64,000 bases of DNA, from NCBI GenBank assembly GCA_037176885.1, contig JAWWNJ010000155.1, positions 1 through 64,000 on the forward strand, written 5' to 3'. Made by a program: the position numbers and the translations under genes. The DNA is from Favolaschia claudopus (lineage: Eukaryota > Basidiomycota > Agaricomycetes > Agaricales > Mycenaceae). The notes beneath the pieces are model-generated. The model ran no database searches and had not been told where the DNA came from. It was given only the letters and a program-made list of their open reading frames with translations. This document shows positions 1 to 64,000 of the stretch, piece by piece. Every line of letters starts with the position of its first letter. Position 1 is the first letter of the stretch.

Positions 1-2439
1 ACCAAGAAAGACATCGTCTTTAAGTGGACCGCGGAGTGTGATGAGGCGCAGGCAAGGATTAGACAGAGGTTGAAGGATTGCCCCGCGCTCAAGCCTTTGA
101 GATACGATTGGCTTTCAGATATAGTATTACAAGTGGATACGTCTTGGCGAGCTATTGGTATAATTATCTACCAGCTTGATCCAGACGACCCTAAGAAGAA
201 GTACTATGCGCGGTTTGCGAGTATAACGCTGGGGAAAACTGAGGCAAATTACTCACAACCCAAACGTGAATTGTATGGGATGATGAGAGCTCTTGAAGCC
301 ATGTACTACTGGATTTTCGGAGCAAGGAAGCTTGTGGTTGAAACCGATGCGTTGTACATCAAGGGCATGTTGAAAAATCCTGGAATGGGTCCAAATGCTA
401 CAATAAACCGTTGGATTGAGAAAATTCTCATGTTCCATTTTAAGTTGAAGCATGTTCCTGGCGAAAGGTTCGCCCCCGATGGATTGTCAAGGAGAGATCC
501 TTTCCCCGGGGATGAACAGTTCAAAAACTCCGAGGAGGGCTATGATCAGAATGAGCCTCCAGAGGACCATGAAGATGTTGTAACGGACGGGCGACAGCCC
601 TTGGAATTTGAAGAGTTTAAGCACCTTATTGATAAAAGGGGTGGTTACCTTCTGATGGAGCCTGAAGCGTTGAGTGTTGAAGATTTCGCGGAAGAGTGTA
701 TGCTCGCTGCGTCCGCGGAGGCAGACATCGCAAAGGCAAGGCAAGCGGCCTATGAAACGGATGGAAAATCTGTTCCAGAGTATATTCTAATGATGGAACC
801 GTTAATTCCTGACTTAGAATTGAAGTGGAACAAAGATAAGCGTGAGCCGTATGATGAAGAGCATCGCACGGAGTGGATGAAAAAGAGAGACGCAAAGTTA
901 CCATTAATTAAGGAATGGTTAGCGGACCCTTTAATAAGGCCCGCGGGGATGAATGACGACCAAGAATATCGAGCTTTTGTCCGCTCTGCCTCACATTTCT
1001 TTTTGAAAGGGGGGAGGATGTATAAAAAAGCGATTGGAATGGCTCATCAATTAGTAGTTGACAAGGAACACCGTATGTTTATGATGAAGGCTGCTCATGA
1101 TAGCCTAGGTCATCGCGGAAGTTATGCCACTACGGAGTTAATTTCATTGAGATTCTGGTGGCCAGGATTGGAGTGTGACGTTTATTGGTATGTGGCGACT
1201 TGCCTACCTTGCCAAAATAGGCAGCACACCTTGATCAAAGTCCCGCCTGTGGTAACGGATACACCAAGTCTTTTCCAAGTAATCCATACCGATGTGATGG
1301 TGATGGGACAAGTCTCAAATAAATGCGGACTTGTGGTTGATGCAAGGGACTCGTTGAGTTCTTGGTTGGAAGGAAGACCATTAGTGAGGGATTCCGCTCA
1401 GGCGATTGGAATGTTCCTGTTTGAAGATATTATCTGCCGTTGGGGTTGCCCAAAGCGGATTGTAACGGACAACGCGGGGCAGTTCAAGAAAGCCGTGGAG
1501 TGGTTGAGGCAGAAATATGGAATAGCCAATGTTCAAATTTCGCCTTATAATTCGCAAGCTAATGGCAAAATTGAATCTGGACACTTTCAAATGAGACAAG
1601 CGTTGTTCAAGGCGACTGGAGGGAACCCAGCCAAATGGTTCTGGTTCTTCCACGTTATGCTTTGGTCCGACAGAGTCACAGTGAGGAAGGGTCTAGGCTG
1701 TTCACCATATTTTGTGGTAACAGGAGCGCATCCAATATTACCGTTGGATGTTGAGGAAGCAACGTGGTTAGTGGAGTTGCCAGACCGAGTGTTGACCACC
1801 GCGGAGCTTATTGGATACCGTGCGCAAGCTCTAGCCAAGCATGTCTCCCATGTTGAATATATGAGAAAGCGTGTTGACCATGCAAAGCGATTGGCTGTTC
1901 AGAAATTTGAACGGAACCATAAGCATGCAATCAAAGGCTATGACTTTAAGCCGGGAGATTTAGTTCTGGTGCGACACACGGAGGTAGAAAAGTCATTGAA
2001 CTCGAAAATGGAAAAGAAAGGAAGATACCTCGGACCTATGGTTGTAATAAGACGCACCAAGGGAGGAGCTTATATCCTTGCGGAGATGGATGGGTCTTTA
2101 TTCCAAGACAGAATCGCTGCAGGAAGGGTAGTCCCTTACTTAGCGAGGGAACGAATCCAAATTCCGAAGAACATTCAAAAGTTCATTGATATCTCTACGG
2201 AGGCGTTGGAAAAACTAGTAAACGACGAGCCCGCGGAGGGTACAGAAGAGAAGAATAAAAGGTCTAAGAAGTTAAATGATATTGCCTTCGACAAAGTCAA
2301 CATCAGGGTATCGCCCCAAGACTTCGAGGATACAGAATCTTCACAATCTGAATCTGAAAGCGAGGAGGAAGAGTCGTTTGGACTAGATGATGAACAGGAA
2401 CGAGTGGGCCCGCGGAGGTCCAGGAGAAATAGAAAGTGA
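1..2439 (+). CDS. Ty3/gypsy pol, C-terminal part (RNase H and integrase), element A
   Basis: Partial polyprotein, open from the window start to TGA at 2437-2439. The first 140 or so residues are an RNase H domain (VDTSW with the first Asp, QPKREL with the Glu, VETDALY with the second Asp). An H2C2 zinc-binding module follows (HDSLGHRG near residue 342 of the stretch starting at 70, CLPCQ near 378). The integrase core shows Asp in IHTDVM, Asp in VTDNAG and Glu in GKIESGH. A GPY/F-like module (RYLGPMVVIRRTKGG) lies near residue 650, and an acidic Ser/Glu tail ends in basic residues. I see no chromodomain. The same domains occur, clearly related but diverged, in element C pol at 51497-55606. The stop codon directly abuts the stop of the converging minus-strand gene. 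No frameshift or internal stop is visible. Confidence 0.93.
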   Translation, partial: TKKDIVFKWTAECDEAQARIRQRLKDCPALKPLRYDWLSDIVLQVDTSWRAIGIIIYQLDPDDPKKKYYARFASITLGKTEANYSQPKRELYGMMRALEAMYYWIFGARKLVVETDALYIKGMLKNPGMGPNATINRWIEKILMFHFKLKHVPGERFAPDGLSRRDPFPGDEQFKNSEEGYDQNEPPEDHEDVVTDGRQPLEFEEFKHLIDKRGGYLLMEPEALSVEDFAEECMLAASAEADIAKARQAAYETDGKSVPEYILMMEPLIPDLELKWNKDKREPYDEEHRTEWMKKRDAKLPLIKEWLADPLIRPAGMNDDQEYRAFVRSASHFFLKGGRMYKKAIGMAHQLVVDKEHRMFMMKAAHDSLGHRGSYATTELISLRFWWPGLECDVYWYVATCLPCQNRQHTLIKVPPVVTDTPSLFQVIHTDVMVMGQVSNKCGLVVDARDSLSSWLEGRPLVRDSAQAIGMFLFEDIICRWGCPKRIVTDNAGQFKKAVEWLRQKYGIANVQISPYNSQANGKIESGHFQMRQALFKATGGNPAKWFWFFHVMLWSDRVTVRKGLGCSPYFVVTGAHPILPLDVEEATWLVELPDRVLTTAELIGYRAQALAKHVSHVEYMRKRVDHAKRLAVQKFERNHKHAIKGYDFKPGDLVLVRHTEVEKSLNSKMEKKGRYLGPMVVIRRTKGGAYILAEMDGSLFQDRIAAGRVVPYLARERIQIPKNIQKFIDISTEALEKLVNDEPAEGTEEKNKRSKKLNDIAFDKVNIRVSPQDFEDTESSQSESESEEEESFGLDDEQERVGPRRSRRNRK

Positions 2440-3297
2440 TTAAAGGTTGTGGCCATATTTGCCCCTACCGAACAAATAATCATGAGTATATTTCTTGGAA
2501 AATATGGAACGAAGACGTACTTGTCGGGAGATTCCACGGACTTGGGATGGATCCCCGGAGGAATGAGTTCAGTGATGCGAGCTAAGACGAGCTCCTTAGC
2601 AGAGTCGTCGTACATGTTGATGTCGAGTTCTTTGCGGAGGTAGGCGAGTTCGTGAACATCTGAGATCTGAGAAAGAGCTTGAACGAAGCCTTCCTTACGA
2701 TACCGGATGCCCCGCTGAAGGAAGTAGAAAGCGAGGTCGAACTCTTCTGCGAGCTCACCAAAGTGGAACTTGTCGTTACCAAACATGATAACTGGGGGGG
2801 GGAATTCAGCGATGAATAAAACCCCGCGGAGATTTTTGGGATCGTACCAGGGCCACCGCGCTCGTGGAAAACGGTGAACATATTGTTCTGCTCAGTAAAA
2901 GGACAAGTGCGAAACTTGCGGAGGCAAGTATCGCAAGGAGCGCCCCAAGCCTGAGGATTACAAGTCCTAGAACCGTGCTCCGCTTCGCAGCAAGAACAAG
3001 CAGCAGTAGGCTGGAAGAATTCCCCTGAGTAAGGAGCGAGATGCGGAGAGAACAGAAGCGCACCTTGTTATCCGCAAGGAACGCAAGAGTGTAGCGGAGA
3101 CGTTCGCGGACCTCCAGAATCTTGGGCTCCCTAGTGGTGGATGCATCGTAATTATAGCCAAAAACGCTACGAAGAGCGCCTATCTCATCCATGGGGAAGA
3201 AAGGAGCGTCCCACTCAGGATGAGGCGAAGGAGTGGAGTAGTAGTAGTCGCCGTAGTCAGGTGGTAAATTCTCCTCGTCGTATGGGTCGCAGCACAT
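2440..3297 (-). CDS. Antisense cargo gene 3 of element A: small zinc-cluster protein, 4 exons
   Basis: My model is 3297-3064, 3010-2848, 2791-2521 and 2464-2440 on the minus strand, with GT-AG introns of 53-57 nt, giving about 230 aa. The N-terminus is acidic and Tyr-rich. Exon 2 carries six cysteines spaced C-x2-C-x8-C-x8-C-x2-C-x6-C, with WG two residues before the fourth cysteine. Exons 3-4 are helical with no family I recognise. The element D gene at 63521 has the same first two introns, a second exon of the same 163 nt and the same cysteine pattern, which supports the model. The last intron (GTACGT donor, CTCATGA branch-like sequence) brings in TAA at 2442-2440, next to the pol TGA at 2437-2439. 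Function is unknown. The cysteine spacing resembles Zn(II)2Cys6 clusters, so nucleic-acid binding is inferred only. Confidence 0.72.
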
Positions 3298-3972: not shown

Positions 3973-5673
3973 TTAAGGCTGCAAGGGCGCGTTAAGCTGA
4001 GACCAGTGCGCGAAGAAGAATTTGCGTACACCATGCGCGCTGTGCGGACGACGGATAGGCCTGTCATCAGGATACTTCTGGTAGAAGTCCAGTGTAAGCT
4101 TCTCGAGATGGTCGTCGTACTTATTGTATTCCGACAACCAGAAGCGAAACTTGAAGGCCGCGGAGCGCATGCTGTGGCGAAGAAACTCCGACTGAGAGCG
4201 AAAGTCGTGGGGATCCATTTCTTCAGCATGGACATTGGCGTTATGAACCGCTTTGTCCATGATCGCAGGGTCTGTGATGACAATGAGATCATGATGAAGA
4301 TCTATTGAATAATGAGGTGAATAACGGAGTAAAGGACATTGAAACGTACTCGGGAAAGTGGGTTCGTGGAGCATATCGACTGCCGCGTCCGCCAGACGAG
4401 TACGCTTGCGACCACGAGCGGCATCATCAGGATCAGCGATCTCCGCGGGAGGCTGGGGACGAAATCAGTGAAAGGGAGTCGTATAACGAAAAATGGGACT
4501 CGCCTGAAGGCCCGCGGGAGGTTCCACCTAGTACGACTTGCGTATTAGAGGGATTCAACCGTGGGAAGTTGATTACGTACCATTGAGTCGTCCTGGTCGA
4601 GAAAGGCTTGTTCCTCTTGAGCGGCCTGAGCTCTGAGCTTGCGCTGAGGAAAAGAAATTTTCAGTGAGAAGGGTGCATGGAGAGGGAGCGTACAACTGTG
4701 CGACAAACGTTTTGGAACATCTCCTCTGGAATCGGATCGTCAACGATTTCAACTGACGCATCGCGTTTCTTGTGCGCCTTACCCTCGGAGATTTTGGAGT
4801 CCTTGGGTTTGACGGGGCAGGCGTCAATTCCGTGTTGAGTCGACGAGCAAGACCCACACACGTTGATCTGCTCCAGAAATTAGATGGACGGACAAGGAAA
4901 GAGAGAATAAAAACGGAGCGTACCGTTCCGCGGGAGTTGTTCTTCTTGTTGTTCTTGCCACCGTTGGTCTTGTTGAACGAAAGACCTCCGGGGACCGCGC
5001 CAGAACCTGCACGGTAATTGGCCCCGTACGCGGCAAGCAAGTAGGGAGTAATATTCATACCTTCCTCCTTGTCAATGTCCATCTGTAGACGATTAAAGTG
5101 AATCGTAAGGTGGAGAACGCCTAGAGAATACCTGGTCAGCGACAGACGCCTCGTCCGCGGAGTCGTCACCGTCGGTATCCTCGGCAGCCTCCTTGGACTT
5201 GTGCTGAAAGGGATAAGTCAGTAGAGAAGCTAAGAAAGAGGGATAAAATAACGAGGGCACACCTTGGCCTTTTCGTCCTTCTTCTTTTTCTTCTTAGCAT
5301 TGTGGTAGCGGTTGATCAACTGGTTGAGCGTAACGTTGTGGCTGCTAGGAATGCGGAAGCCGTGCTCGTTGACAGCGAGTTGAAGCTGGTCAGGGAGTCC
5401 TAGAATGATCTGGGTAACGGTAGCATTCTGGGGGTGCTGGAGCGCGGAGGCCATTGGGAGAAATCCGGTCTGGAAGAAACCCCGCGGGTCAGCATAGTAG
5501 TGAGTAGCAGAGTATAGCGGACGTACGACGCGGTCGAACACCGTGTCGAGCGCTCTGTTGCAGATCGCATCCGAGAATTTCGCCTTTCGGAGACCACGAT
5601 ATTCAGTGTGAGCCGTTTGAATGCCTTGGATTGCTGTCTGGAGTGCAGGCGGAGGGTGGCGGTCAGGCGCCAT
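3973..5673 (-). CDS. Antisense cargo gene 2 of element A: multi-exon helical protein with CxxC motif
   Basis: Starts with ATG at 5673-5671 and runs through at least seven short introns (for example GTACGT donor and TTCTTCCAG acceptor near 5540-5480). The best conserved pieces against element D gene 2 (61238-62935) are an LQHP..NRYHNAK helical segment, an acidic D-D-S-A-D-EASVADQ segment, a D-KEEG segment with YGANYRAG, a short C-x2-C-x9-C motif followed by PVKPKD, a basic RGRKRTR segment that could be a nuclear localisation signal, and a helical end with FKFRFWLSEY. Exon junctions fall at matching places in both copies. I do not recognise the family. The 3' end is uncertain: either the frame reads to TAA at 3973, or a last intron near 4030-3980 extends it. 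Function unknown; nuclear location inferred. Confidence 0.65.
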
Positions 5674-6699: not shown

Positions 6700-8504
6700 T
6701 CACGGCGAGCCCGACTGTTGACGACGCGACGACCGACGAAGTTCCTGCCCAGTGCTTGACCCCTCCACAAACGAAGGACGCCTGTCCTTGGAGCGCGGCT
6801 TAGCAATACCCGCGGGACCGTACGGCGGCTTCTTGGAGAACGCATGGACCTTGTCCGCATCGCGCGGCAAGGGAGCGTGTGCTGAACCGCTGCGCGAGAA
6901 GTCCACCGCGGACGACAGCTGGTAGTCGCGGCGCGCCAAAGGGACAGAAAGAGTCCCCGTGGCCAGTGAGGCATCGACTTGCCCAAACGACGGCGCAGGA
7001 ACGTTGCGCTTGGACAGCGCGGGATGATACGTTCCACGAGTGTCGGCCGGCGCATCGTCGGGAGGAGGAATGACCGGGGAGGTTGGGTGATCCGCGTCGA
7101 AATCGTCGTTGGCGTTGAATTCGGCAACGTTTTTGAAATAATTGCTGACGATCTCACGGATACGATCCCCATCTTCCGAGTCTTCAAAAATACTGTCGAA
7201 AGCGGCCTTGGACATGGCCTCGTCGGCGTTCTTGAGGACTACCGCAACGTCTTGAGCAGCTAAACGTTGAGCGCTCAAGGACCGAGCATGGAGCAAAGCG
7301 GTATAATCCGCGTCCACGGTAGCCTGATAAAGACGTTGCAAGAACGAAGCGATAGAGTGCGGCGCCACGTTGTGGAACGGGCGGATGTGCTCGAAGAACT
7401 TCATCAACTCCTCTGGTGTCCAATTAAAAGAACACTTCTCCTTGCGCTGAGAGCAGCGAGAGCAAGAAGAACCCCGCGTAGAATTAGGGTCTACGCCGGG
7501 GCAGGGAAGGAATAAGTTCGCGCAGTAGGTGCACGGGAGGGCCTCGGAATTGAAAAGCGGCGGGTTGAGCGCATCAGTGACGTAATTGCGCGGGATACGC
7601 ATCACCGCGGGCGTCGGGGTAACCTCAGCCGGAATGGAGAAAAGCGCAGCAGTGAGCTCGTCACGGGAAGAAATGGTGATGGTACGAGGATCCGGTTTTG
7701 CAGGCGCCGCGGGCGCAGGTTGAACAACGGGAACAGCAGCTGCGGGGGCTTTCGCAATTTCGACCTCAACGCGGCGGCGTTTCTGAGGAGGCGCGGAGGA
7801 CTCGACGACGGAAACTGACTCTTGAACGTCAGCTTCTACATCGGAGTCCACAACCTTCTTGGCGCGTCCAGGGGCTTTAACGATTTTGGGAAGGTCGAAG
7901 TTGTGAGGAATGAGATCCCCGGAATCGTCGTAGGCTTGACGAAAATCGAGCGAAGGGCGGCCGAGGCGGTATGCTGAGCGGAGGAAAGTCGGCGTCTCCA
8001 TCTCGTACTCAACGAGGCCATCGTAAATGGCCTTCATCAAGCGAGACGAAGACCAAAGGAATAGTCGAACTTCGTCCGGGACGTCGTCTTCTTTGAGATA
8101 GGCCTTCTGCAAAAGGAAGAAAGTCAGAACTCAAAGAGGATTAAGAAAGAAATAAGCAGACGCACCATGATGGGATAAAACGCTTTGGCGCGTGCGACCT
8201 GATTAGCCAGCGGGGGTTCTTTCTTCAAAAAGTTGAGCTCGTGGAAAGCGCGGGTCTCATCGTTATCGAAAGGCTCCCAGATGGCAGCCTGAGGGTCGGA
8301 CATCGGAAGCGACGGCGGAATGTCGGCAAGAATGAGCCCCGCCGGGGACTCCAGAGGGTCCATAAGATCGTCGGGAGGCGCAGGACTAGACGCTGGAGGG
8401 GTCGGCGAAGGTTTAGGCGGCAAGGGCTTAGGTACGGTGATCTTGCCCCGGGGTTTGGTCGCTCTGGCAGATTTGGGCTTGGACTTCTTGGGCTGAGTGG
8501 CCAT
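6700..8504 (-). CDS. Antisense cargo gene 1 of element A: Zn2Cys6-like protein, 2 exons
   Basis: Exon 1 is 8504-8166 (113 codons, ATG of MATQPKKS). A 59-nt GTGCGT..CAG intron follows, then exon 2 at 8106-6700, for a 581-aa protein. The N-terminus is Lys/Pro/Ala-rich. PQKRRRVEV is a plausible nuclear localisation signal. The central cluster is C-x2-C-x6-C-x12-C-x2-C-x6-C (CTYC, CSRCSQRKEKC), matching Zn(II)2Cys6 spacing. The basic residues normally found between cysteines 2 and 3 are instead after cysteine 5, so it is at best a variant. An EELMKFFEHIRPF segment follows, similar in place to EELSLMGTELKEW in element C cargo gene 1, then a helical Ala-rich region and a disordered Ser/Pro/Arg tail. 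Exon 1 is homologous to element D gene 1 at 60307. A role as element regulator or coat is inferred, not shown. Confidence 0.8.
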
Positions 8505-9344: not shown

Positions 9345-10244
9345 TGATACGCGTGGTCAATTTTGCGCGTATTTATCTAGCTTTGGTAGTGACTTGTGGC
9401 ACAAATACCCATATTAGCTGCATGGCACTGAGGGCTTTACTCGACTATCAATAGGAAGTCAGTACTCCTGTTCATGGTGACTTGAAGGAGGATCAGAGTG
9501 AGCTCCGAGCTGCTGGTCGTAACGTTACTGGAGATAATCATAGAGGCCCGCGGCACACGGAGTAACCCAAGGTTTTGGGTGTTGCAAGAGTAACAGATGA
9601 AGACTGAGTTGAAGTGCAGTCTGGACTTGTAGTAAAGCAAGACGGAACGTCGGAGGAAGGCCCGCGGAGTATCCAAACGAAAGGTCTATGAGATACATAG
9701 ACGCCGCGGACCTGCCGAAGACTTACAGACAGGTTGCCGCACCAATGTACCTTGAACATAAGGGTGCCGGACGTTGGATCAACGGCAGGGTAATGCCTCA
9801 GATCTGGAACAGTGATTGCGGACATCCATCATGTCACGGAGAATACTCCGCGGACTCGGCATGTACATCACGGAAGCACTTTCCTGTATGCCGCTGATGA
9901 GATAGTTTGACACTGAAGCATAGGAATGTCTTAGACGGTGATCTGATGATCTGGAAACAGAACTAGAGATCTAGAAGGGTCTAGACGGAGTGGAGCAACC
10001 ATATGATTTAGAGGATCTACATGGATGCCGGGGAGACACGTCGGAGCGGAACAGTGATACACATCCGCGGATGACCAAGATAGTGATTCAACCGTGAGAT
10101 GGTCAGAATAGATGACTTTTCATGGACGGATCGTGACGATTCAGAGCGGCAGACGGCTGCTAGACCTACGTATACCCAATCCCAACTCAATTGTTTCTGT
10201 ATCTTGACTCAGATTTGTTTACATCATGTATTTTCTTGGCATTA

Positions 10245-10255
10245 GTATAAAAGAC
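10245..10255 (+). promoter_or_regulatory. First conserved TATA element in LTR A
   Basis: AGTATAAAAG in a block (TTGGCATTAGTATAAAAG) that is repeated in reverse complement in LTR D near 58565-58585. Position conservation in a diverged LTR suggests a real core promoter. Confidence 0.55.
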
Positions 10256-10728
10256 CATGTATTTCTCGTCGTTTGTCTAGTTCATCGCGCGCAGGTCATT
10301 GACGGCGTTGGTGTACTCAGGCAGGGACGTAGAGGCATTTAAATTGGAGTTATCTGCTTGCTAGTTTTTGTCTTCATTAGGAACGATTTGTTGAAGTTCA
10401 GACAAGTGTGAATTAAGACTTAAGTTTCTAGAAGCGTTCACCCGCGGAAACTTTGGACTGTGGAGTTTTGTCGTGGCATAGCCAACCCAGTAACCTTCCA
10501 AGGACTTGGCCCGTTTGAGCATTGCTCGCCCCCATTTACCAGTGTTGCGTTTGACTGGTCCACTTAACCCGCGGACTACTCAGAATCAGTTGAAGTGAAA
10601 GTGTGCTTAAGAGTGAACTAGTATCTCCCCAAGTTGAAGAGAGTAGACGATCTATCCGCGGACGCATCGTGTTCAGACTTGCCTGCACGTAACCTGACGG
10701 GATACGATTAGTGCCTTGGAGCTTGTGC

Positions 10729-10738
10729 TATATAAAGG
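10729..10738 (+). promoter_or_regulatory. Second conserved TATA element in LTR A
   Basis: TATATAAAGG lies in a block of about 26 bp that is the same in LTR D (58139-58165, reverse complement). It is about 490 bp downstream of the first TATA element, so the LTR may have two start sites. Confidence 0.6.
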
Positions 10739-11181
10739 AGTGTCAAACGTACCTGAGAGCTTGGAAGTTCAGGTCTACAGTCGCAGTGGCACTGTAAGAA
10801 GTGTGTGTACGAGGCATTTCTAGCAATTGGCTGGTGTCTAATATATTCAATTCGCCCTGACTGTCGGAGTTCCTCCCAGTCTTGTATCCTAAAAACCGAT
10901 ATACCTCGTTCATTGGAAAGTCCGCGGACGGATTTCCTCTAAACTATAGTCAGTAAAGAACTTGTTTTGCGTCAGTTCAGACCAGTAGACGAAGTTGAAC
11001 TACATCTGGATTTCGGATTGGACCCCACGAACTCAATAGGAAGCACTTGGTGTATCTTGTTGAGACATATATAAGTGTTGGAGTGTTGTGTGTGTTGGTT
11101 GAGTTGTTTGTGTGTTTTGTAGTGGATTAGTCCATTGCGCACTTTGCATCTCATATCGATATATTCAAGTGCAGCGTTTCA

Positions 11182-14540: not shown

Positions 14541-14572
14541 GAAGTTTTTTGATTAATATTCTTCCACTATGA

Positions 14573-16049: not shown

Positions 16050-16109
16050 AGTATACTATTTCCCCGTATACGCCTGAAACGAAGGAGTTTGGCTGGTAGC
16101 GGGACTTAC

Positions 16110-34924: not shown

Positions 34925-34951
34925 AGCGAGACTTGTCTCGTCACGGGGGAG

Positions 34952-47850: not shown

Positions 47851-48022
47851 TCCAGGCTAGTAGCTTTTCCCCGTTAGGGTCAAATAAATCTCTTTGCCCG
47901 GTTGCAAGCCGTTATCGTGATGTCTGATTCCACCTGAGCTTTTGGTCCGGCAGCCGGCGGTACTCACCCGTCGGCTATAGATTTTACTTATAGCGGCCGG
48001 TGCCCAGTGAGTCCTTCGAGCG

Positions 48023-48693: not shown

Positions 48694-48977
48694 GCGTAGT
48701 AGGAAATATATTCCCACTGTCAAACGAACTTGCATCTTTAAAACTCTGTTTCAAGCTGCCCGATTAGGAAGGCTTCTTAGAAACCAAAGCTTCCTCGTGT
48801 TTTTTGCTCAGCGGGAGCTCAGCACCTCGTTGGATATTCCACATGTATTGCGGATCTTCCGGGAGCGTCGGGTGCAATGAGTCCCACCGTCGATCTCTAT
48901 GTTTTTGGGTCTCCCGCCAGGTCTCAGAGGGGTATTTAAGCTGGCGGGAAGGTCCCATTTGCTTCAGTCGTCTACTC

Positions 48978-51273: not shown

Positions 51274-51496
51274 ACTCGTTCCTAAAGAGCTCCCCCAGCG
51301 GGTCCCCCTTTCTTCAGAATCCTCGGTACTGGCTCAATCGTTTCGGACACCTCACGGCTCATCCTTCTGCTGGCCGCCACACACTCCCCGGGTGCGCAAC
51401 TTAGTCGCTGCTTACTGGCGGGAGATGGAGACAATCCAATTACTTAAAGACTTCGAATCCCGTTTCAAATTGTAACGTAGATATCGTAGCAGTAAT
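51274..51496. terminator. Convergent 3' gap between cargo and pol of element C
   Basis: 223 bp between the two stops; both transcripts must end here or overlap. No clear palindrome noted. Confidence 0.35.
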
Positions 51497-54400: not shown

Positions 54401-55606
54401 CGCACCAAACGGAGTCTGGAAGGTTGTGTAATCTCGAGATTCCGGGTCAATCAGCCGGTGGTTGTACCCGGAGTAAAGATCAAACGTGGACCCACAAGCC
54501 CTTCCCGCGAAATGTTCGGCCAGATCCGCGGCGCCGGGAGGCACCCCAGAGTGTGCAATGGTTACCGCGTTCAGCGGCTCCAGCGAATGCACTAATCGAA
54601 TGGACTTCTTATCACTCTTCAGAACTCCAAAGTACTTGGTGCGGTACGAGCCATTGGATGGTTCGTATATATTGGCATCGATACTCGCCCTAAGCACCTT
54701 GCAGACTTCTTCCAGCTGTCCCGGCGGGATGGGAACATTTCTCTCCACCCAAACCTTATGGTCTGGCTTCACCGGGAACTTTACTGGCGGGAAGAAATCC
54801 GTTCTGAAAGTTCCTCTTTCGCTGTCATCCCATGCTACCGTATTTTCGTGTATAGATAACATATGATGAACCAGCTTCATCTCTTCATCATTCAAGAATC
54901 CGTCGTTATGCAGTTCGTCTACGACCGCCTTCCTCTCCGCAGTGTATCTCCCAACGGGAACGAATTCTGGCGGGTGAGGGTCTAGCGGGACGAGGTTCTG
55001 CAATGGATCCCCGATGATATTCCTTTCTATCCTGAACTCGGGAGGGAGCGGCTCGAGGACCGGCTTTACTTTTAGCGCTACCGGTTTATACTTCTTCGAG
55101 AACACCTCCTTCACCTCGACTTCAGGCGGGTGATCCTCGGGAATGATTTCCTCCATCAAAGCGACTTTCGTCTCATTGTGTTCAAACCCGGGTACTACCC
55201 AATCGGCGTAGTCACAGCACTGACAGCGCTCCCCCGCTGAATGACGAGATTGCTCTTGCCTAACCGACTCGATATCGATGCCGGCAGTCATGAACACAGC
55301 GGCCGGATCCTTCAGTTTTTCTCTGACTTTGTCCGTTATGTTGGCTACGATAGCCACATAGGATTCGCCGACTTCTTTTCCTTCTGTCAGCTGCTCGTTG
55401 TATTCTTGGAATAACTGAGCAGCGGGTTCATCATCAATCTCTGGCATGGCAGCCGCCAGGTAGGCCATTTTCGTCTCGGCCATCGAAAATCCCTCTTCTC
55501 CAGACTTCATCAAAGCGCAAATTCTAGGAACATTATTCTCGTCCAGTTCTATCTGAACCGCTAATTCTCCTTGATGGTTAATCAACTCCTCGAATTCTGA
55601 AAATTT
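51497..55606 (-). CDS. Ty3/gypsy pol of element C (RT, RNase H, integrase)
   Basis: More than 1360 codons without a break. Order: about 200 residues of linker, RT (QGWTNSVPIFHEDV, active site YIDDVPV near residue 430), RNase H (AVDTSYLGVGVHVY, QPKRELFGL, VETDAQYL), H2C2 zinc module (HDSLAHRG, CELCQLRQ), integrase core (HVDVMV, VTDNAPAF, GKIENGHF), GPY/F module (RYLGPVIIIRRTKGG) and an acidic tail. RT, RNase H and integrase catalytic residues look intact, so this copy may have been active recently. It has no ATG at its 5' end: its frame lies -1 to the protease ORF and becomes open just upstream, so it is probably made by ribosomal frameshifting at 55606-55600. Confidence 0.92.
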   Translation of the reverse strand, partial: KFSEFEELINHQGELAVQIELDENNVPRICALMKSGEEGFSMAETKMAYLAAAMPEIDDEPAAQLFQEYNEQLTEGKEVGESYVAIVANITDKVREKLKDPAAVFMTAGIDIESVRQEQSRHSAGERCQCCDYADWVVPGFEHNETKVALMEEIIPEDHPPEVEVKEVFSKKYKPVALKVKPVLEPLPPEFRIERNIIGDPLQNLVPLDPHPPEFVPVGRYTAERKAVVDELHNDGFLNDEEMKLVHHMLSIHENTVAWDDSERGTFRTDFFPPVKFPVKPDHKVWVERNVPIPPGQLEEVCKVLRASIDANIYEPSNGSYRTKYFGVLKSDKKSIRLVHSLEPLNAVTIAHSGVPPGAADLAEHFAGRACGSTFDLYSGYNHRLIDPESRDYTTFQTPFGALRLVRLPQGWTNSVPIFHEDVTYILRDEIPAVTRPYIDDVPVAGGFTRYEKPDGTYETIPENPLIRVFVWLHLVDCNRVLTRLAYSGATVSGKKLQICRGTFKVVGHVCSYEGMRPDEDRIGVIERWGPLKDFHDVKAFLGTVGVMRMFIQDYTVKAEPIQKLTRKEVIFEWGPAQDACMKVVKKALRECPALRPIRYEWDTEVVLAVDTSYLGVGVHVYQRDPLDLNKRYYARFSSIPLNDRESRYSQPKRELFGLKRALDHMQYWLLGCRKLVVETDAQYLKGMLDHPGMGPNATINRWIEEILMFHFTLKHVPGKTFGPDGLSRRRIQPGDPEYDHPEDEFDNNEPPGLHPESSAWPPLKNFEDFKHDIDTRGGYMVAELAGDEAQSAADFENDAEQAWAYTRLSREYVFEVFSQSKGDDKPDGEPLIPDLELKYDPTKREPYPEDQRSVAAKLADERLLLMKEWRRNTLARPDGMNDKEYKAFLRFATGFFEDADGKLYHKSSTGSAHQLVVDKDHRMYMMRAAHDSLAHRGVFATKSLIEMRFWWPEMERDVTWYIKTCELCQLRQRTLLKIPPVVTHTPSLFQVVHVDVMVVGTPSNGFNKIVDARCSLSSYIEARPIKNENARTLALFLLEDVICRWGCPEELVTDNAPAFLAAVAYLESKYGIRNIRVSPYNSQANGKIENGHFSMRQSLWKATGGNPSKWYWFFPQMLWADRVTIRRGTGCSPYFMVTGAHPILPLDIEEATWLVHLPGRTLTTAELIGYRAQALAKHSTHVEQMRERVTDEKRANLRRYEIAHKHTIEDYHFEPGDLVLIRNTTVEKSLNTKMAARYLGPVIIIRRTKGGSYIVAEMDGSVFQSKIAQFRVVPFEQRRSIKLPADIHDLIDLSAETLEKMVQEEDGYSGDDFQFGNVRLTPSGAADEEPALQEALPEEEEEEEEPNTDEPLPFKRKTRSATKAAARK

Positions 55607-56748
55607 TGCTCCTCTTGGCTGCTCGGCTGCTCAGCCGGTGATGCGTCGTTCTGGACGCGCCGCACCTGTCGCCGCTGGCCTCTGGGGAAGGTAGGGACGA
55701 CCACCCGCTTCTGCGTGGAGGGGTCGGTCAAAGTCAGGAACTGGTTCCCGTCAGAGGTATTTTTGATACCGCTGGCGGTCAGGATTTCGAAGGGTCGCCC
55801 CAACAGCACCTTGTAGGCCGGGTTTCGTATGACATGCACTTGAAGGTACACCGTCATGTCACCGAACCTGAAGGGGACGTTCCTTGCCAGACCGACTGAC
55901 TTCTCGGTTTGCCCGTTGGCGCTCATCATGTGGATGCAGTTATCTGGGTCCCAGCTGACTCCTAGTTCGGTGGCTACCGACAGGGCCATGGACACGATCT
56001 GCGATCCACCGTCCAGAATACATTCAACTTCAGCGGCGCCGTGAATGAGCGGGAAGACCACTCTCAGGGTCGCTGATTCTCCGGCAGAAGCATTGTCGGA
56101 GATGGCGACGAAGACATCCCTTACCGGCTCTCCCTCCACTATCGACTGCCAATATTGGACTACTGGGTCGACGGTGATCAGGGCTCCCGCTGGCATAAGT
56201 CCGTCGGCCGCTGTCGCGACCTGAACTATTACCTCGTAAGGTAGGTCCTCTACGGTTACGCTGGAGGACTCGTCATCTTCGTCGGCCTCTCTCTCTGCGT
56301 GGCTAATCAACTGTTCTAGGGTTACTCGAACAGCGGGCGAGACCCTCTTCTTCGAGAGCAACGCCTTAGCCTGGCGCAGCAACTTCGGGCTGAGGGCGAA
56401 CAGTCTCCCCAGCGGGAGAGCTATTTCCAGGTTTCCGAAGATCTCCTTTATCAAGGATTCGACCTCCTCATCGTCCTGGTCCTCTACGGGCGCCTTCAAC
56501 TCGTAGTTCTTTTCGTTGGCCACTAACGGCGGATCTCCCGCCGGCCGAACTCTAGGTTCGTTGGGCCTTTTGGCTGGCTTGACCGGAGGAACGTTCCTAT
56601 ACGGAAGCTCCGGCGGCTGAGCGCCATTTTGTTCTTCTGTCTCCTCCCGCCCTTTCTCCTTGGTTTCAACGATCGCCGGCTGTGCTTCGACAGCGGGCTT
56701 TCGCAGCGTCCTCGGCTTGTAGGGCAACTTCGGCATCACAACTTCCAT
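55582..56748 (-). CDS. Aspartic protease ORF of element C
   Basis: 388 codons from ATG 56748. The same frame is also open upstream and overlaps the gag end in the -1 frame, so translation by frameshift rather than from this ATG is possible. The N-terminal half is Pro/Glu/Lys-rich. The retropepsin-like domain has VECILDGGSQIVSM, in which the catalytic triplet is D-G-G instead of the usual D-T/S-G, and a second-half LLGRPFEI block as in other retropepsins. A basic tail precedes the stop. The unusual triplet is flanked by well-conserved residues, so it is more likely a lineage feature than damage. Confidence 0.82.
   Translation of the reverse strand: MEVVMPKLPYKPRTLRKPAVEAQPAIVETKEKGREETEEQNGAQPPELPYRNVPPVKPAKRPNEPRVRPAGDPPLVANEKNYELKAPVEDQDDEEVESLIKEIFGNLEIALPLGRLFALSPKLLRQAKALLSKKRVSPAVRVTLEQLISHAEREADEDDESSSVTVEDLPYEVIVQVATAADGLMPAGALITVDPVVQYWQSIVEGEPVRDVFVAISDNASAGESATLRVVFPLIHGAAEVECILDGGSQIVSMALSVATELGVSWDPDNCIHMMSANGQTEKSVGLARNVPFRFGDMTVYLQVHVIRNPAYKVLLGRPFEILTASGIKNTSDGNQFLTLTDPSTQKRVVVPTFPRGQRRQVRRVQNDASPAEQPSSQEEQNFQNSRS
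55600..55606 (-). other. Candidate -1 frameshift site A AAT TTT between protease and pol
   Basis: On the minus strand the protease codons CAA AAT TTT contain the X XXY YYZ heptamer A_AAT_TTT. Slipping back one base gives the pol frame (AAA TTT TCA GAA). The protease stop follows at 55584-55582. Heptamer form, phase and direction all agree. No downstream pseudoknot was checked. Confidence 0.65.
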
Positions 56749-56834
56749 TTTCTTTCCTACAGGCGGGCGTACTTGTCTGTTCTCCGGGGGCTTATCCGCA
56801 CTGGGTTTCCCCTTTGCCCCCTTCCTCGAACTCT

Positions 56835-57690
56835 CTAAAAATGCTCTCCTTCGGCGCTGTTCCCCGTTCGGGAGGGACCAGCCCCGTTGGGAGGGCGAGA
56901 GTTCGCTGAGACAGCCGCCAGTAGAATCGCAACAGCGTTGGCGTCGAATTGCGGCGGGGGAGGTTGGCTTTGATGAGCCACAAGGGGTGGTTGAACACCC
57001 CCTGAACCATGCGACTGGAGTTGCGTCACTTGCCGCTGGAGGTTTACTTGCTCAGCTCGCAAGGAAACCAATTCTTCTTCTCTCGGGTCATAGTAGAATT
57101 CCTCGTTCTGGCTGAACGCGGCTTGCGCGGCCTCCAGCTCCTGCTCGTCCATGTCAAGAACGGAGAGCTGAGCGAAGACAGACTGGTAGTTTTGCGCAGC
57201 GGCCGTTGGTTGGACGGCCGGGCGGTACTCCTCTACCTGCTGCTTCTTGGACTTGTGCCCGTCTTTCGGGATAGGTATCCCATCGGGGAAACAGTCTCTG
57301 AACCCCACGACCTTCATCTTTCCACTCCCTATGTGGGCTTGCCGGATGAGACACTTATCTCTAAAATGCCCAAACTTGTCGCAATAAAGACACCCCTGAT
57401 CCGCCAGGTTCCCTTTGAATTGCATGGTAGGCATTCGCGGGTAAGACTGGGAGTCAGCGGCGCCTGGGACTCTGCCCGGTAGGGACTTATAGAGGGACTC
57501 TAACTCAGCCATCTTCTTCTTGGTCGCGGCGTCGATCTCTTTTAATTGGGAGGTCTGATTATCCAGCCGCTCCATCATAGTGACGACCGACACCTTAATC
57601 GTCTCAAGAAGGGCCTTGTTAGGGTCCTCTTCTTCTTTCTTAATCGCAACGTTCGGATTCGGGAGAATCGATCGCCCGCTCGACGCTCGT
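56835..57690 (-). pseudogene. Gag C-terminal part of element C, cut by element D
   Basis: Contains a coiled-coil-like Lys/Glu segment, a CCHC zinc knuckle CLYCDKFGHFRDKC (C-x2-C-x4-H-x4-C) and a Gln/Pro-rich tail ending EGEHF. The apparent ATG just upstream (57704) and its first four or five codons are LTR sequence of element D. The true gag N-terminus, with the capsid domain, is on the far side of element D, outside the window. Confidence 0.82.
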
Positions 57691-59480
57691 TGTAACGCTG
57701 ACACTTGAATATATCAACTGAAGTGCTAAATATAGCGCAGCAGAGAATCTACCACCAAAATATATATATAACACAATCAACCAACACACACAACACTACA
57801 ACACAAATATCTCCACAAGATACACTCAAATGTCTCTCGAAGAGTTCGTGGGGTTCGATCCGAAATCCAGATGTCACAGTGACGAGGATATAAGTCGACT
57901 TGCAAGTAAGAACCTTGCACAAAACACGCTCTCACACACCGTAGATGGAAGTGATTCCGTCCGCGGACCTTTCCTAAAAATAGGAACTATAAACAGTAGG
58001 ATACAAGATACCCAACGAAGTTGAATATCAGGGCGAGATTGAAACAATGACCACAGACAGTTTCCGCGGCAGAATGCACAATTCTTATAGCGCCAGTTAC
58101 GCTATAGACCTGAACCTCCAAATTCCAGGAACCTTTGACACTCCTTTATATAGCACAAGCCTTTCAGACGAGGACTAATCAGATCTCTTCCGGTTATGCG
58201 CCAGCAGTCCCAACGCAATGCTTCAGCAGATGGACAGTTCCACTCTTCCTCAGACTCAGGGAGATACTAGTTCACTCTCGAGCACACGTATCTTCACAAT
58301 GAGATAGGCAGTCCGCGGGCAGTAGAGGCAGGCAGTTCCTTACGCACTAAGGCCACGACAAAGCTACTCGAAAGCAAAGCCTCCGCGGGTGAACACTCTC
58401 GAAACGATGCTTAGATTCACACTTGAACTGAACTTCAACACAATTTCTATTAAGACAAACGAGTAGACAATATCTTTATATATGCCTCTACGTTGCTGCC
58501 TGAGTTCACCAACGCTGTCCAATAGACTGAGCGCGATGTCCTCCAGCTCAACGAGAAATACAGGTCCTTTTATACTAATGCCAAGAAATACATCACATAA
58601 ATAGTTCAGAGTAAGCAATGTCGATCCAATTGAGTAGAGAGGTGGTATATTGGTATTTGGGTGTCCCGGAGGACCTTCGGCAGCCTCTTGGCTTGTCGAT
58701 CCAACGGTAGAAAGTCAGCAGTTATGACTCCCACGGTTGAATCACTGTATTGCGGAAGCCCGCGGAACGCCATCATTGGTGATCCCGTCAATCCGTCACT
58801 GGCGGCAACCCTTCCGGTGGCGCCATCAACGCCTCTAATAACTCCTAAGACTATTCTTGGGACATTCCTATTCACTCGCAATATCACAGGCTCGTCTGTT
58901 GTCCAATTTATCAAGCCACCAAGTCATCCGCGCTGACTCCAATATAGAAATAGATTTCTAATGAAGTTGCCGCACTTGTCCGGCTTCAGCATCACATCAT
59001 CAACTCTTCTGTCAAAGACCTCATGTCTTGCCATAACTCTGCCTTCTGATCCTAGCACCGGCATCTCCTGTATGAGATCCCTTTCCACTGTTCCAGCTGT
59101 CTATTTATAGTCGGCAGCCCGCGGCATCTGTCCATTGACTGTTTAGCCGCCGCGGCGCCTTCCACATCCTTGTAGACCTTCGTCTAAGTCCGCAGTACAC
59201 TAGGTACTTGACCCTTCGTCACTCTTTCTGAGGGTTCTGTTTAGAACAGATCCATAGTACTGCAGTAGGTCATTAATATATAATGCCTTTCTCCTGTAAT
59301 GGGTTTTTACGGTCAACAGCTCGGAGCTCACTTTGACCCTCCTTAGTGTCACCGACAGAGGTACTGACTTCCTATTGATAGTCGAGTAAGACTATAGTCG
59401 TGGCGGGTAGTTGGGGTGTTTGGGGCCGCACTTGACTTAAAATAGCCAGATATAACGCGCAAAAATGGCCAGTCGTTACA
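57691..59480 (-). repeat. 3' LTR of element D (1790 bp)
   Basis: Plus-strand ends TGTAACGCTGACA and GTCGTTACA; the terminal inverted repeats fit TGTAACG...CGTTACA. The two TATA blocks (58143-58152 and about 58565-58585, reverse complement) and the GTTCGTGGGGT block near 57845 match LTR A. CCGCGG occurs about seven times. Confidence 0.87.
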
Positions 59481-60306: not shown

Positions 60307-60948
60307 ATGCCCGTCAAAAAGAAAGACTCCGCTGCCAGCTCAGAACCAACTCGTCGTTCCACCCGCACCACCGTCGTTGCCGCCGCCAAAACTCCGCGTA
60401 AAGCCAAAGCCACCTCCAAAGTGGGCCCTGGTCGCGATTCCGTCGTCCTCCCCAAAGACGTCGAGCCTGGCCTTCCTGAATCGGAAGAGTCTGCGTCTCC
60501 GTCTCCTGGGCCTTCCTCTGTCGTTAAAGGTCGCAAAATTCAGTCGCCACCCGCCGAGGAGCCCATCGTCGTCCCCAGCCGTCCTGCAGCGCCTCCGTTT
60601 TTCATTCCGCCGCCCCAGATTCCTTCCGACGACCCGTCTGCTTCATTGTGGGCCCCGTTCGATAACGGCCTCGCCCGCGACTTGGTTCCTCTTTTCGTGC
60701 AGAAACCACCGCCGCCCTCGGTTGAGCAAGTTCGCAGCGTGATAGCGCTTTCTCCTGTTCTGGTGAGCCTCTCTTTTCTCTAACTTTTCTGCCTTTTTAT
60801 TAACACCCCTTGGTTTTAGGCTCCTTATCGCGAGGCCCATCCCGACTTGCCTCTTAAAATCGATCGTATAGGAACCGATCGACATTATTCAGTCTTAAAA
60901 CTCTTCCGCAACTTGGCTTTTGCAACGCTCCAGCTCAAAATCGTCTAA
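60307..60948 (+). pseudogene. Cargo gene 1 of element D, truncated without its zinc cluster
   Basis: ATG at 60307 (MPVKKKDSAASS). Exon 1 to 60762 is homologous to exon 1 of element A gene 1 (PSASLWAPFDN against PQAAIWEPFDN, and a VEQVRSVIALSP end). The intron GTGAGC..TTTTAG is at the same place. Exon 2 keeps only a short start (APYREAHPDLP) and stops at TAA 60946-60948. The roughly 400 residues with the six-cysteine cluster found in A are absent, so an internal deletion is likely. Confidence 0.7.
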
Positions 60949-61237: not shown

Positions 61238-62935
61238 ATGGCACCACGCTCTGCGCTCATCGAAGCGTCCAACCTTATCCTTGAAGCTGAACGCGACTTT
61301 CAACGGGTCCTCGCCCTCAGAGACTCTCTCCCTGCGGCTGTCATTCACTCTACGCTCAGCACGTTCGCAGCCGCGGCGGTTCGTCCATATTTTTGCATGC
61401 CCAAACGCTTTCCGCGCTGACTCTGTCTATTTTTAGTCGGACTTCAAACTGTTCGCTCAGTCCCTTCAGCACCCCTCCAACGAGAAGGTCGTCACTGCTC
61501 TTACTGCCGCCTCCAACGCTATGAGGGACGAGTACAAGATCTCCAAGTTCAAGATCCCTACTTCCCAGCTTGGCGCTATCGACCGTATGCTCAACAACTA
61601 CCACAACGCCAAGAATAGCAAGCGCGACAAGGCCGCGGCAGCCATCAAGGGCCACCGTGCTAAGGCTCAAGTTCAACAGGTGCTTTCTCGTGCTCGTCGC
61701 ATGCCTCGCGGTCCTGAACTGTCCTCTCTAATGCAGGGTAAGTCTGTTGAAGTCATCGACGACTCCGGGGACGACGACTCCGCGGAGGAAGCTTCCGTCG
61801 CTGATCAGGTATTCCTCAGACGTTACGAAGATTATTCGTGGTATTAACGAACTCCAGATGGATCTCGACAAGGACGAAGGTAGAATCAACCCTCTCTATA
61901 TCGCTGCCATGGGAGCCAACTATCGCGCAGGAGGCTCGTCTTTGCCCCCTGGTCTCTCCTTCCAGAAGAATAGTGCGCCCAAGGGCAAGAACGACACTGT
62001 GCGTCTATTTTTATCCCTCTGCACTTTCCTCTTCATTCACCCAGATTTCCGTTTGTTCGTCTTGCTCTTCTCACCAGCACGGCCAGGACAACTGCCCTGT
62101 CAAGCCCAAGGACGGTATCCCTGCCGGTAAGGCTCCTCAAGACGACGGCAAATCCGTGCGCATCATTGACGATCCCGTTCCAGAGGACATGTTCAAAAAT
62201 GTTCGTAAAGTTCCTGTGCGTTCGCCTTTTCACTTCGTTCTATTTTTATAACATCGTTTTTATTAGGGCAAAGGCCCCAAGGCGAAGAACTCCGACACAT
62301 CTTCCACTTGTCCTGACGAGGACGAGAAGGTACGTAACCCATATCCCACGGTTGAATTCTCGCTTAACGTTCATCAATTGTTGTAGATGGCGCCCGCGGG
62401 ACCACTTATGGTGCGTGAAATATTCGTCAACTCTGCTTCTCTGCTTAATTCTCGCTCATAGCCTGCTTTGTCGTTGAACCCTGTGTCCAACCGCAGCAAC
62501 AAGCGTGCCCGTACCGAACCGGATGACGTCGACCTCGACTACGAGCCCAAAGTCCCTGGTACGAGTTCATCTTCTCCTTGATCTAATTTCGTCTAATTTT
62601 TATTTTAGACTCCATGGACAAGGACCTCATCGCCATCATGCATTCGGACGATGTCAACAAGACCTGGAAGGTTTCTCAGAACCAACTCAAGCACTTGGAC
62701 GCGCAAGGTTTCAAGGCTCGCGAGCGCTACCTCCGCCGCAACATGGCCGCCGCTTCCTTCAAGTATCGCTACTGGCTTCGCGCCTACGAGGAGATGGATG
62801 ACCAGCTCGAGCAGCTCATGAAGATCCATCATGCCGACAACGAGGATCCCATTATGCGCCCCGCTAGTTCCGCGGTATGTCTCTGCGTTTATTTTTATAG
62901 CTCTCCAGTTAAACCTTTCCGCCTTCTAGACTTGA
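61238..62935 (+). CDS. Cargo gene 2 of element D: multi-exon helical protein with CxxC motif
   Basis: ATG at 61238 (MAPRSALIEASNL). About nine exons; the last adds one codon before TGA 62933-62935. Shared with element A gene 2: an LQHP..NNYHNAK segment, acidic DDDSAEEASVADQ, DLDKDEG with GANYRAGG, C-x2-C-x9-C (CSSC..NC) with PVKPKD, DDPVPEDMF, SNKRARTEP (nuclear localisation candidate) and FKYRYWLRAYEEMDDQLEQL. Several introns contain CTATTTTTA. Exon positions match A, which supports both models. No known family; function unknown. Confidence 0.72.
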
Positions 62936-63520
62936 TGGTCCTTCCGCGGCCTATATACCTATGTGCCTTCGCTCTTTAGACACATAAACCGTCAACTCTC
63001 AGTGTTCCCTATCGTATCGTCGTGCGTTCAACCGCACATATTTGCTGTTCAACCAGCAACTGTCCAAATCCCCGGGTGTCTCGTATATACTTAGCAGTGC
63101 TTGCAATACAATTGTTTTGTCAAGCCAACTTCGTCCGATTTCCCGCAGTCTCTTGGACATCTCAGGAGTGGTAAGACTCTTTTTCCGCGCTCAGAATTCC
63201 AAAAATAGAACTCCAATCGTCCAGTTCTACTTCAACTTCTCAAGTACTTCAAGCCGCCGCGGAAGCCTTTTTGTGAACGACTCCATTGCCGTGACCGCCT
63301 ACATGCTCCTTGAAGCCCTTATTCCACTGGATATTGTGCGCCTCTAAGTCTTGGCAAGCCTAGACTTCAAGTCTCACTCCTTTACTTTCCTCCGTCCCGC
63401 TTATGATCAATACAAAATCTGATTCAAATAATCACAGGCAAGACATCTCCTCAGCAGTGTTTACTATTTAAACAGTGCCTCACAGGAACGTCTTCTCCCA
63501 TAATATTCTTTTCTCTTTGC
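62936..63520. other. Intergenic region between cargo genes 2 and 3 of element D
   Basis: No gene. About 63040-63140 matches 3770-3885 of element A in reverse complement. A perfect short palindrome AGACTT-C-AAGTCT lies near 63361, and TATTTAAA near 63463 precedes gene 3. Confidence 0.55.
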
Positions 63521-64000
63521 ATGAGCATCCACGGCTTAGACGACGAAGAGAACGACGACTACTACGATTATCTCTACGACAGCCCCGACGAAATGGATCC
63601 TGCCGCAGTCCTCGCAGCCTTCGCACGCGATATCATAGTCCCTGTCAGCGAGATCCTTCCCAAGTTTCAAGCTGCCATCTATCTTATGGAAGATAATAAG
63701 GTGCGTCCTCAGTACTTGTTACTTTCAACTTCGACTGATCTATTTTCATCACCAGCCGACTGAACAGTGCTCTTGCTGCGCCAAGAAACACAACGTCGAG
63801 CCTTGCGCTCCTACTAGTTGGGGTCCTCCTTGCCACAACTGTCTTATTCAATTCCATCCTTGCGACTTCACCAGCAAGGACAAGATGATCGAAAGTTGGA
63901 AGAAGCGCGGAGGTCCTGGTGCGTCCATTTATAGATGTCCAGACTTATTCCTCGCTAATCCTCCCCTTCAGCTATCATCTTCGGTCGCAGCACCGTCGAC
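63521..64000 (+). CDS. Cargo gene 3 of element D: small zinc-cluster protein, 3'-partial
   Basis: Exon 1 is 63521-63700 (MSIHGLDDEENDDYYDY, acidic and Tyr-rich). Exon 2 is 63756-63918 (163 nt, as in A) with C-x2-C-x8-C-x8-C-x2-C-x6-C and the WG signature (SWGPPCHNC). Exon 3 starts at 63972 (IIFGRSTV, matching VIMFGNDKF in A) and runs off the window. Same order and spacing as element A gene 3. Function unknown; zinc binding inferred from the cysteines. Confidence 0.75.

Follow-up and report, generated by a model that had tools for sequence, protein, structure and literature searches.

Antisense genes after pol are already known among long terminal repeat (LTR) retrotransposons, in the plant elements Retand and Grande and, within the fungi, in Boty of Botrytis cinerea, whose antisense gene brtn (Zhao et al. 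2011, as cited in PMC7264820 and PMC8365987) has been placed among those that lie between pol and the 3' LTR (PMC7264820). In PMC8365987 the latter element goes by the name BcGypsy1. The function of such accessory genes is given as unknown (PMC7264820), and neither PMC11963269 nor PMC7264820 uses the word 'intron' in its main text. Here we analyze the first 64 kb (the window) of a contig of 561,981 bp (C155, GenBank JAWWNJ010000155.1) from the genome of Favolaschia claudopus (264.6 Mb, 460 contigs), in which three Ty3 retrotransposons, designated A, C and D, bear a block of predicted, spliced genes on the strand opposite to gag-pol. What is new in these elements is a short DNA word that characterizes the family, together with a hypervariable gene cassette. 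Literature searches, with most subscription papers outside their coverage, returned no fungal family described as bearing several spliced zinc-cluster genes in a block, a word typical of the family or a gene open to exchange, and nothing that combined Favolaschia with a retrotransposon. The explanation that we favour, with a confidence that stops somewhat short of even, is that the block constitutes a self-recognising regulator, probably anti-silencing, which would work like VANC of Arabidopsis through putative binding to the DNA of its own element.

The antisense block and its linkage to pol

The elements belong to the Ty3 retrotransposons, and their gag-pol is of the kind found in autonomous elements. 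In the predicted pol of C a reverse transcriptase (RVT_1, 360-517), an RNase H (612-716) and an integrase domain (Integrase_H2C2, 926-982) follow each other (Pfam), which is the order of Ty3 or Metaviridae; the RVT_1 match (2.2e-6, 28.0 of 29.6 bits) stayed slightly under the cut-off. The LTRs, primer binding site (PBS), polypurine tract (PPT) and target duplication of the same group are recognizable as well. D has LTR ends of the type TG..CA, target duplications were found for copy C36 (CCGG) and element F (ACGG), and the PBS TGGAGCCCACCGCGAGG is common to D, C, C36 and F. The two flanks of C differ from each other and show no matching target duplication.

The initial annotation had described A, C, D and a further element, B, without coordinates; all were placed here by sequence matches, and their nesting was resolved by aligning the window, extended by the next 20 kb, with itself. 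Antisense genes were called by a crude intron-aware gene finder, which scored the antisense vs the sense strand at 66.9 vs 4.4 in A, 90.7 vs 6.7 in C and 21.5 vs 2.2 in D; a re-trained version, used on C, gave 286.9 vs 28.2 for the other strand. The proposed spliced genes between pol and the 3' LTR thus stand for A, C and D, whereas no antisense block was found in B (2.8 antisense vs 41.7 sense). Their number, three in A, four in C and two plus a gene 1 remnant in D, falls within the 'one to five' of the annotation. In A the genes 3, 2 and 1, in this order from pol to LTR, together span 2521-8504. The suggested collinearity holds for A with D but not for C, where the gene with a nuclear localization signal (NLS) adjoins pol while gene 2 of A and D is the middle one. 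Similarly, a zinc-cluster gene 1 beside the LTR is present in A and C but not in D, which has lost the cysteine part.

The spacing CX2CX6CX5-12CX2CX6-8C is the pattern of the Zn(2)-Cys(6) cluster. It was found in gC1, gC2 and gC3 (genes of C, see Table 1) and in gene 1, where all 22 long models, from 20 loci, have the six cysteines; gene 3 departs from it by a CX8 in the first half. A profile of A and D gene 3 matched gC3 across the cysteine region (hhalign probability 89%, E 2.1e-6), which points to a domain common to all three element types. Gene 2 retains a CX2CX4HX4C knuckle in both A and D. The profile of A gene 2 gave only weak disulfide isomerase matches among PDB sequences, off the cysteines, and was not used further; neither was the predicted structure of gene 1 (mean pLDDT 40.9) for fold searches. 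A protein database search that finds only relatives sharing short exact words, and does not show absence from other fungi, returned six homologues of gene 1 and one of gC1, all from F. claudopus, and none of gene 2. One gene 1 homologue is named Zn(2)-C6 by UniRef, and the annotated F. claudopus protein P0001 (581 amino acids) is 99% identical to A gene 1 over the queried second exon.

That the block is integral to the elements, as the initial annotation held, is borne out by a genome-wide search, in which counts refer to loci and not to independent insertion events. For 25 of 25 gene 1 matches pol lay downstream on the opposite strand, so that no gene 1 without pol was recovered (0/25), and the distance between the two was 4.4 to 7.1 kb in 23 of them. 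The longer distances at C90 (12.0 kb) and C10 (13.6 kb), judged by the spacing to gene 3 or pol, suggest an insertion. Pol was not listed for 5 of 41 gene 2 matches and for one of the 41 match rows of A gene 3; three of these six lie on C47 (scattered fragments), those on C58 and C22 coincide with D-type gene 2 matches, and the one on C69 is unexplained. Seen from the other side, among the 40 scored, best matches of 174 first-look candidates for A-type pol, gene 3 was present in antisense at 38 (36 of them at 91-98 bp from the end of the query), gene 2 at 36 and a gene 1 detectable at the DNA level at 25; the two matches without gene 3 were a partial one (query 1-598 of 931) and a D-type copy. 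For the C and D families, where the best 40 of 149, 115, 212, 142 and 88 candidates were scored and the counts are therefore lower bounds, D gene 2 was listed at at least 28 of 40 pol matches, all but two at 2196-2198 bp, gC4 at at least 22 of 40, with a spacing of 541-545 bp, and gC1 at at least 6 of 40. D-type pol is plentiful and young, with 99-100% identity in all 40 scored matches (best 40 of 149 candidates). Four stretches of 20 kb that were read through (C264, C30, C36 and C10) repeat the order of A, with pol first and then genes 3, 2 and 1 in antisense, and gag plus protease is visible in three of them; gene 1 is interrupted by an insertion in C264 and C30, which are 99.9% identical over 20 kb, and is partial in C36. 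As in elements of the Retand type, predicted antisense genes are thus conserved between pol and the 3' LTR.

The ratio of nonsynonymous to synonymous changes (dN/dS) shows the predicted, spliced genes 1, 2 and 3 to be under purifying selection. The gene 1 set of 34 sequences (some loci twice) yielded 22 models of more than 450 amino acids (17 distinct), 6 short ones and 6 without a model; those of C264 and C30 are split by the insertion, and the others were possibly cut by a short fetched piece or are broken. Within allele groups dN/dS of gene 1 was 0-0.13 for most pairs, 0.22-0.23 for two pairs and 0.51 for C105/C29, the latter three resting on few changes, and between allele groups it was 0.15-0.32, being undefined where synonymous sites were saturated. 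For gene 2 we obtained 0.18-0.28 and for gene 3 0.06-0.39, excluding C36, in which the transferred splice site of gene 3 is off; values for the pol of C264 cannot be relied upon, owing to a frameshift in the segment that was compared. The frame and splice sites of gene 2, a GC-AG intron included, are retained in C264, C36 and C10. Long-frame gag-pol and retained antisense splice sites fit the proposal of the initial annotation that antisense introns would survive because they are not spliced from the genomic RNA.

The gene 1 cassette and the family words

Between A and copy C10 the identity is 91% at the end of pol, 92% in gene 3, 94.9% in gene 2, 84% after gene 1, 82% in the promoter and 97.6% in the LTR, and only 57-61% in gene 1 itself. 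Copies C227, C105, C12, C29 and C192 compare with A in a like manner (gene 1 55-62%, its 3' side 89-92%, promoter 81-84%, LTR 98-99%), and in four of these five the alignment restarts at 8500, near the gene 1 start codon (8504). Within the C family, gC1 of C and C206 is 69-74% identical vs 94-96% from gC2 to pol, with 96% in gC3, gC4 and pol; the contrast with C70 is weaker (79-86% vs 94-96% elsewhere). Moreover, by pol C105 groups with A (99%), with C10 more distant (91%), while by gene 1 it groups with C10 (84% of residues) and is distant from A (47%), a conflict that argues for exchange between elements. In both families, the predicted gene 1 is shown by these alignments to be a hypervariable cassette, with old alleles on young backbones. 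Positive selection was considered as the source of this divergence and rejected: pairwise dN/dS was below 1 wherever defined and synonymous sites were near saturation between groups, and for that reason old alleles plus exchange are preferred.

An unbiased scan of 6-mers identified CCGCGG as the top word in A, D, C264 and C36, with 33 (2.5 expected), 48 (2.6), 43 and 51 (2.75) sites, respectively, the four expectations ranging from 2.5 to 3.8. In C, C206, C70 and the B stretch the top word was CAGCGG or AGCGGG, and C contains 85 CAGCGG sites vs 13.8 expected. The density, around 3 per kb for CCGCGG in A and D and 3-4 per kb for CAGCGG in C, is kept up through LTR, gag, pol and block. In two arbitrary 5-kb stretches CCGCGG occurred at 0.2 and 0.4 per kb and CAGCGG at 0.8 and 0.6 per kb. 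CCGCGG was absent from eight other Ty3 loci, several of which are nearly identical to one another, and CAGCGG occurred there at 0.9-1.2 per kb. Among the 64 palindromic hexamers CCGCGG alone stands out in D (48, the next 14), and these 48 sites are spread over LTR and coding parts with a mean spacing of 327 bp and a largest gap of 1086.

Synonymous codons were shuffled within each gene (n=1000; protein and codon usage preserved; p floor 0.001). CCGCGG was seen 4 to 12 times per gene vs 0.3 to 0.9 after shuffling, at the floor p in A pol, D gag, D pro, D pol and C36 pol (D pol 12 vs 0.91, D gag 5 vs 0.29, C36 pol 10 vs 0.89; each p 0.001), and in C pol CAGCGG was seen 16 times vs 4.75 (p 0.001), with AGCGGG behaving likewise. 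In the eight other Ty3 loci CAGCGG gave no significant excess. Of the 9 CCGCGG sites within 2.4 kb of aligned pol of A and D, 4 are common, 2 occur only in A and 3 only in D; the density is thus maintained despite turnover of the sites. A family-specific short motif is thus concentrated on the elements, at the level of their sequence, as is known for the VANC system.

Possible roles of the block

CGG is the half-site of fungal zinc-cluster proteins. Considering that zinc clusters are encoded by the element beside a word that matches this half-site, we propose that a block protein reads the DNA of its own element. One or more of the zinc-cluster proteins would bind the family word, by which the element would be recognised along its whole length, and the binding would most likely counter silencing or activate transcription of the same family, as VANC does for VANDAL. 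The antisense placement would allow the intron-bearing genes to be inherited through unspliced genomic RNA. Gene 1 would be swapped between elements by recombination, for example by template switching in reverse transcription; it may face something fast-changing, and may be the part that escapes the response of the host or of a rival element. The best reader candidates are gene 3 and its relatives, as they are present in all three element types, as D is without the gene 1 cysteines and as the word is constant while gene 1 varies. The full proposal, which we hold tentatively and place clearly below even, is a self-recognition system in which nuclear zinc-cluster proteins, coded in antisense, read a CGG word of the family along the entire element, shielding or activating the family, with words diverged into CCGCGG and CAGCGG, with sites accommodated in synonymous codons of gag and pol, and with old gene 1 alleles shuffled as a specificity cassette.

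Several observations weigh against self-recognition. Gene 1 is not obviously a motif reader, as its alleles differ greatly while the motif is constant, and D and its neighbour copy, the two D-type copies in which gene 1 was read, lack the gene 1 cysteines although D-type pol is abundant and young. The cut-off of Zn_clus (PF00172) was reached neither by gene 1 (E 0.89, 10.2 of 21 bits) nor by gC3 (E 0.053, 14.1 of 21 bits, profile 2-35 of 39), and for gene 3 Pfam returned no family. On the sense strand CCGCGGA outnumbers TCCGCGG by around two to one (D 29:15, A 23:11, C36 38:21), and the word of C favours the sense strand within the block and the opposite one within pol; a plain palindrome reader predicts neither. 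Enriched words are furthermore not confined to elements with zinc genes, given that a copia element at 29890-35275 has one of its own (GATCCTA, 12 vs 0.66 expected). CpG depletion, tried as a sign of escape from methylation, did not discriminate, with values of 0.90-0.95 in other Ty3 elements and 1.08-1.09 in arbitrary stretches.

The same anatomy and motif data apply if the block limits its own element, with antisense-coded zinc proteins that bind the CGG words, or the antisense RNA itself, repressing sense transcription or transposition, as has been discussed for antisense genes of retroviruses and plants. Pairing with the genomic RNA would be expected of antisense transcripts that overlap its 3' region (PMC7264820). 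Protein-level selection and dozens of near-identical scored copies, however, fit a factor that helps the element to spread at least equally well, and an action of RNA only leaves dN/dS well below 1 unexplained. We consider such self-limitation unlikely, and on our analysis anti-silencing or activation would rank first and self-repression second.

Alternatively, the words may not be read by the element at all and may instead reflect how these lineages mutate or choose codons, or mark a site used by a host factor. No more than two classes of motif have been recognised to date, and the copia element too has its enriched word; yet shuffling with codon usage and protein fixed gives far fewer sites, the density in pol of A and D is maintained despite site turnover, and the two arbitrary stretches and the other Ty3 loci of the same genome lack the enrichment, which makes this explanation improbable. 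A role of the words in RNA or in the particle, where they would be bound on the genomic RNA by the gene 2 knuckle or by gag to serve packaging or strand transfer, has in its favour the retroviral-type knuckle retained by gene 2 in A and D and the roughly 2:1 excess of CCGCGGA on the sense strand. CAGCGG is nevertheless evenly divided over the whole of C (43 sense, 42 antisense) and the 48 sites of D are dispersed, without a packaging-like cluster, and we regard such a role as quite improbable. That host genes were picked up, or elements nested, by chance, a mixture that B does resemble, has a negligible probability in view of the linkage (25/25 and 38/40) at mostly constant spacing, the purifying selection and the related gene 3 in three element types; for host genes it was rejected on linkage and selection.

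Returning to self-recognition, the function of antisense accessory genes becomes accessible to simple binding assays through two families whose words differ and whose proteins are related. If the proposal is true, sequence-specific self-recognition would evolve in retrotransposons too and not in DNA transposons alone, and coding sequence could serve as landing ground. With its hypervariable sequence on uniform backbones, gene 1 is moreover a natural case of modular recombination, and of a possible arms race, in a mushroom genome that contains many such elements.

Layout of the window and comparison with known systems

The features of the window are collected in Table 1. A (+) lacks its 5' part, as the contig starts inside the element, and the rve match of its pol (8.5e-4) is under the Pfam cut-off. 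C (-) measures around 20.4 kb without D; its antisense block occupies 42.8-51.3 kb and its 5' LTR lies at 74913-76725, beyond the window, the LTR pair being 97.35% identical. D (-), inserted into the gag of C, is complete (16.0 kb, 57691-73679), with an identical LTR pair of 1790 bp and a 4-bp duplication, TCGT, on both sides. Its gag-pol lies beyond the window, with a pol 57% identical to that of C, and an inverted second D copy is found around 7 kb past it. Copies of C occur on C19, C66, C121 and C420 at 12385-13438, and on C90, C97 and C185 at around 4.2 kb, from the contig starts; the equal distances suggest duplicated contig ends, which are perhaps subtelomeric.

Table 1. Predicted features of the window (contig C155)
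Feature	Position	Strand	Remarks
A 3' part of pol (RNase H, integrase)	1..2436	+	Pfam PF17921 8.1e-16, PF17917 5e-13
A gene 3	2521..3297	-	3 exons, ~222 amino acids (aa), six cysteines (C6) CX2CX8CX8CX2CX6C; 3' end uncertain
A gene 2	3973..5673	-	9 exons, 425 aa, one GC-AG intron; lysine-rich NLS-like stretch; CX2CX4HX4C knuckle
A gene 1	6700..8504	-	2 exons, 581 aa; CX2CX6CX12CX2CX6C (CX11 in some alleles)
A 3' LTR (TGATAC...GTTTCA)	9345..11181	+	9 CCGCGG sites
B C-type 3' LTR	17704..19535	+	17151-17703 has pieces of the internal 3' end of C
C 3' LTR	40327..42137	-	14 CAGCGG sites, both strands counted
gC1 (C gene 1)	42829..46327	+	model of up to 15 exons, ~930-950 aa; CX2CX6CX8CX2CX7C; provisional, last small exons doubtful, breaks in two in copy C206
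gC2, small C6 gene (CTPCSDAGEDCEFLHWGSKCTRCREAKVPKC)	46801..48780	+	exon model incomplete
gC3, small C6 gene (CSACLNARSHCEFTEWGAPCTRC.LLKHNC)	48978..49606	+	173 aa in copy C70
gC4, NLS-bearing gene (KKGKGNKRARID)	50029..51274	+	302-330 aa in models
C pol	51500..55630	-	unbroken 1377-codon frame; RT_RNaseH and Integrase_H2C2 above Pfam cut-off
C protease and part of gag	55585..57690	-	PF13650 1.8e-5; interrupted by D
D 3' LTR	57691..59480	-	same as 5' LTR at contig 71890-73679; target site duplication TCGT
D gene 1 remnant	60307..60759	+	first exon only, cysteine cluster lost
D gene 2	61238..62979	+	CX2CX4HX4C retained; exon model incomplete, end approximate
D gene 3	63521..64000, on to contig 64264	+	3 exons; 39% identical to A gene 3; C6 retained

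B was rejected as a fourth block-bearing element on the basis of its strand scores, of the limited sharing with C, which comprises only the LTR and around 550 bp adjoining it, in pieces, and of a cysteine scan. The latter, made with half of the six-cysteine pattern over the interior (11185-17703), gave 3 matches of which none extends to a full cluster, although a cluster split by an intron would escape it. The interior contains sense-strand predicted genes (best model 329 aa) and forms a dispersed repeat of its own (19 match rows). In C155, C447 and C140, A is accompanied by the B interior at equal distance, and these three 100% copies represent a segment duplicated together with A. The B interior may be a non-autonomous relative that uses C-type LTRs.

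Three further features were observed. The copia element has identical 324-bp end repeats, with an observed/expected ratio of 0.40 for CpG and 1.44 for TpG, and is perhaps a young element from a lineage depleted in CpG, next to Ty3 elements that are rich in it. A gag-protease fragment at 19513-23587 (-) shows similarity to DUF4100 slightly under the cut-off (7.6e-6) and has C-type LTR pieces on both sides. A remnant of a KDZ transposase lies at 37990-39746, with a CxC1-like cysteine cluster in its first open frame (PF18758 E 0.0028, PF18802 E 0.0041, both under the cut-off).

With regard to known systems, the plant elements Retand, Grande and RIRE2 resemble those described here in their long region between pol and the 3' LTR and in their conserved antisense genes, some of which are nuclear and possibly regulatory (PMC11963269, PMC7264820). 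They belong to a plant lineage, however, and carry the TRP28 domain (PF04195), which Pfam did not return for the block proteins scanned here (A genes 1-3 and gC3). Boty shares the fungal host, the LTRs and an extra gene antisense to gag-pol; compared by description only, it differs in that the sources, as cited, present a single extra gene and mention neither introns, zinc clusters, a motif nor a hypervariable cassette. HBZ of HTLV-1 and other antisense retroviral genes are likewise antisense to gag-pol, nuclear and regulatory (PMC11963269), but HBZ concerns another protein and host, and one gene instead of a block. Fungal Zn(2)-Cys(6) proteins (PF00172) have the same six cysteines (CX2CX6C...CX2CX6C), whereas the block proteins stay under the Pfam cut-off and in A gene 1 the basic half of the cluster is the second, not the first. 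VANDALs, to which VANC belongs, are DNA transposons. The likeness to VANC therefore concerns the mode of working only, the host element being a retrotransposon in our case. As described for Arabidopsis, VANC is a transposon-coded protein family with variable regions that acts in sequence-specific anti-silencing through a family-specific short motif; its motifs reside in non-coding tandem repeats, whereas the sites found here are dispersed and include coding sequence (PMC5735166).

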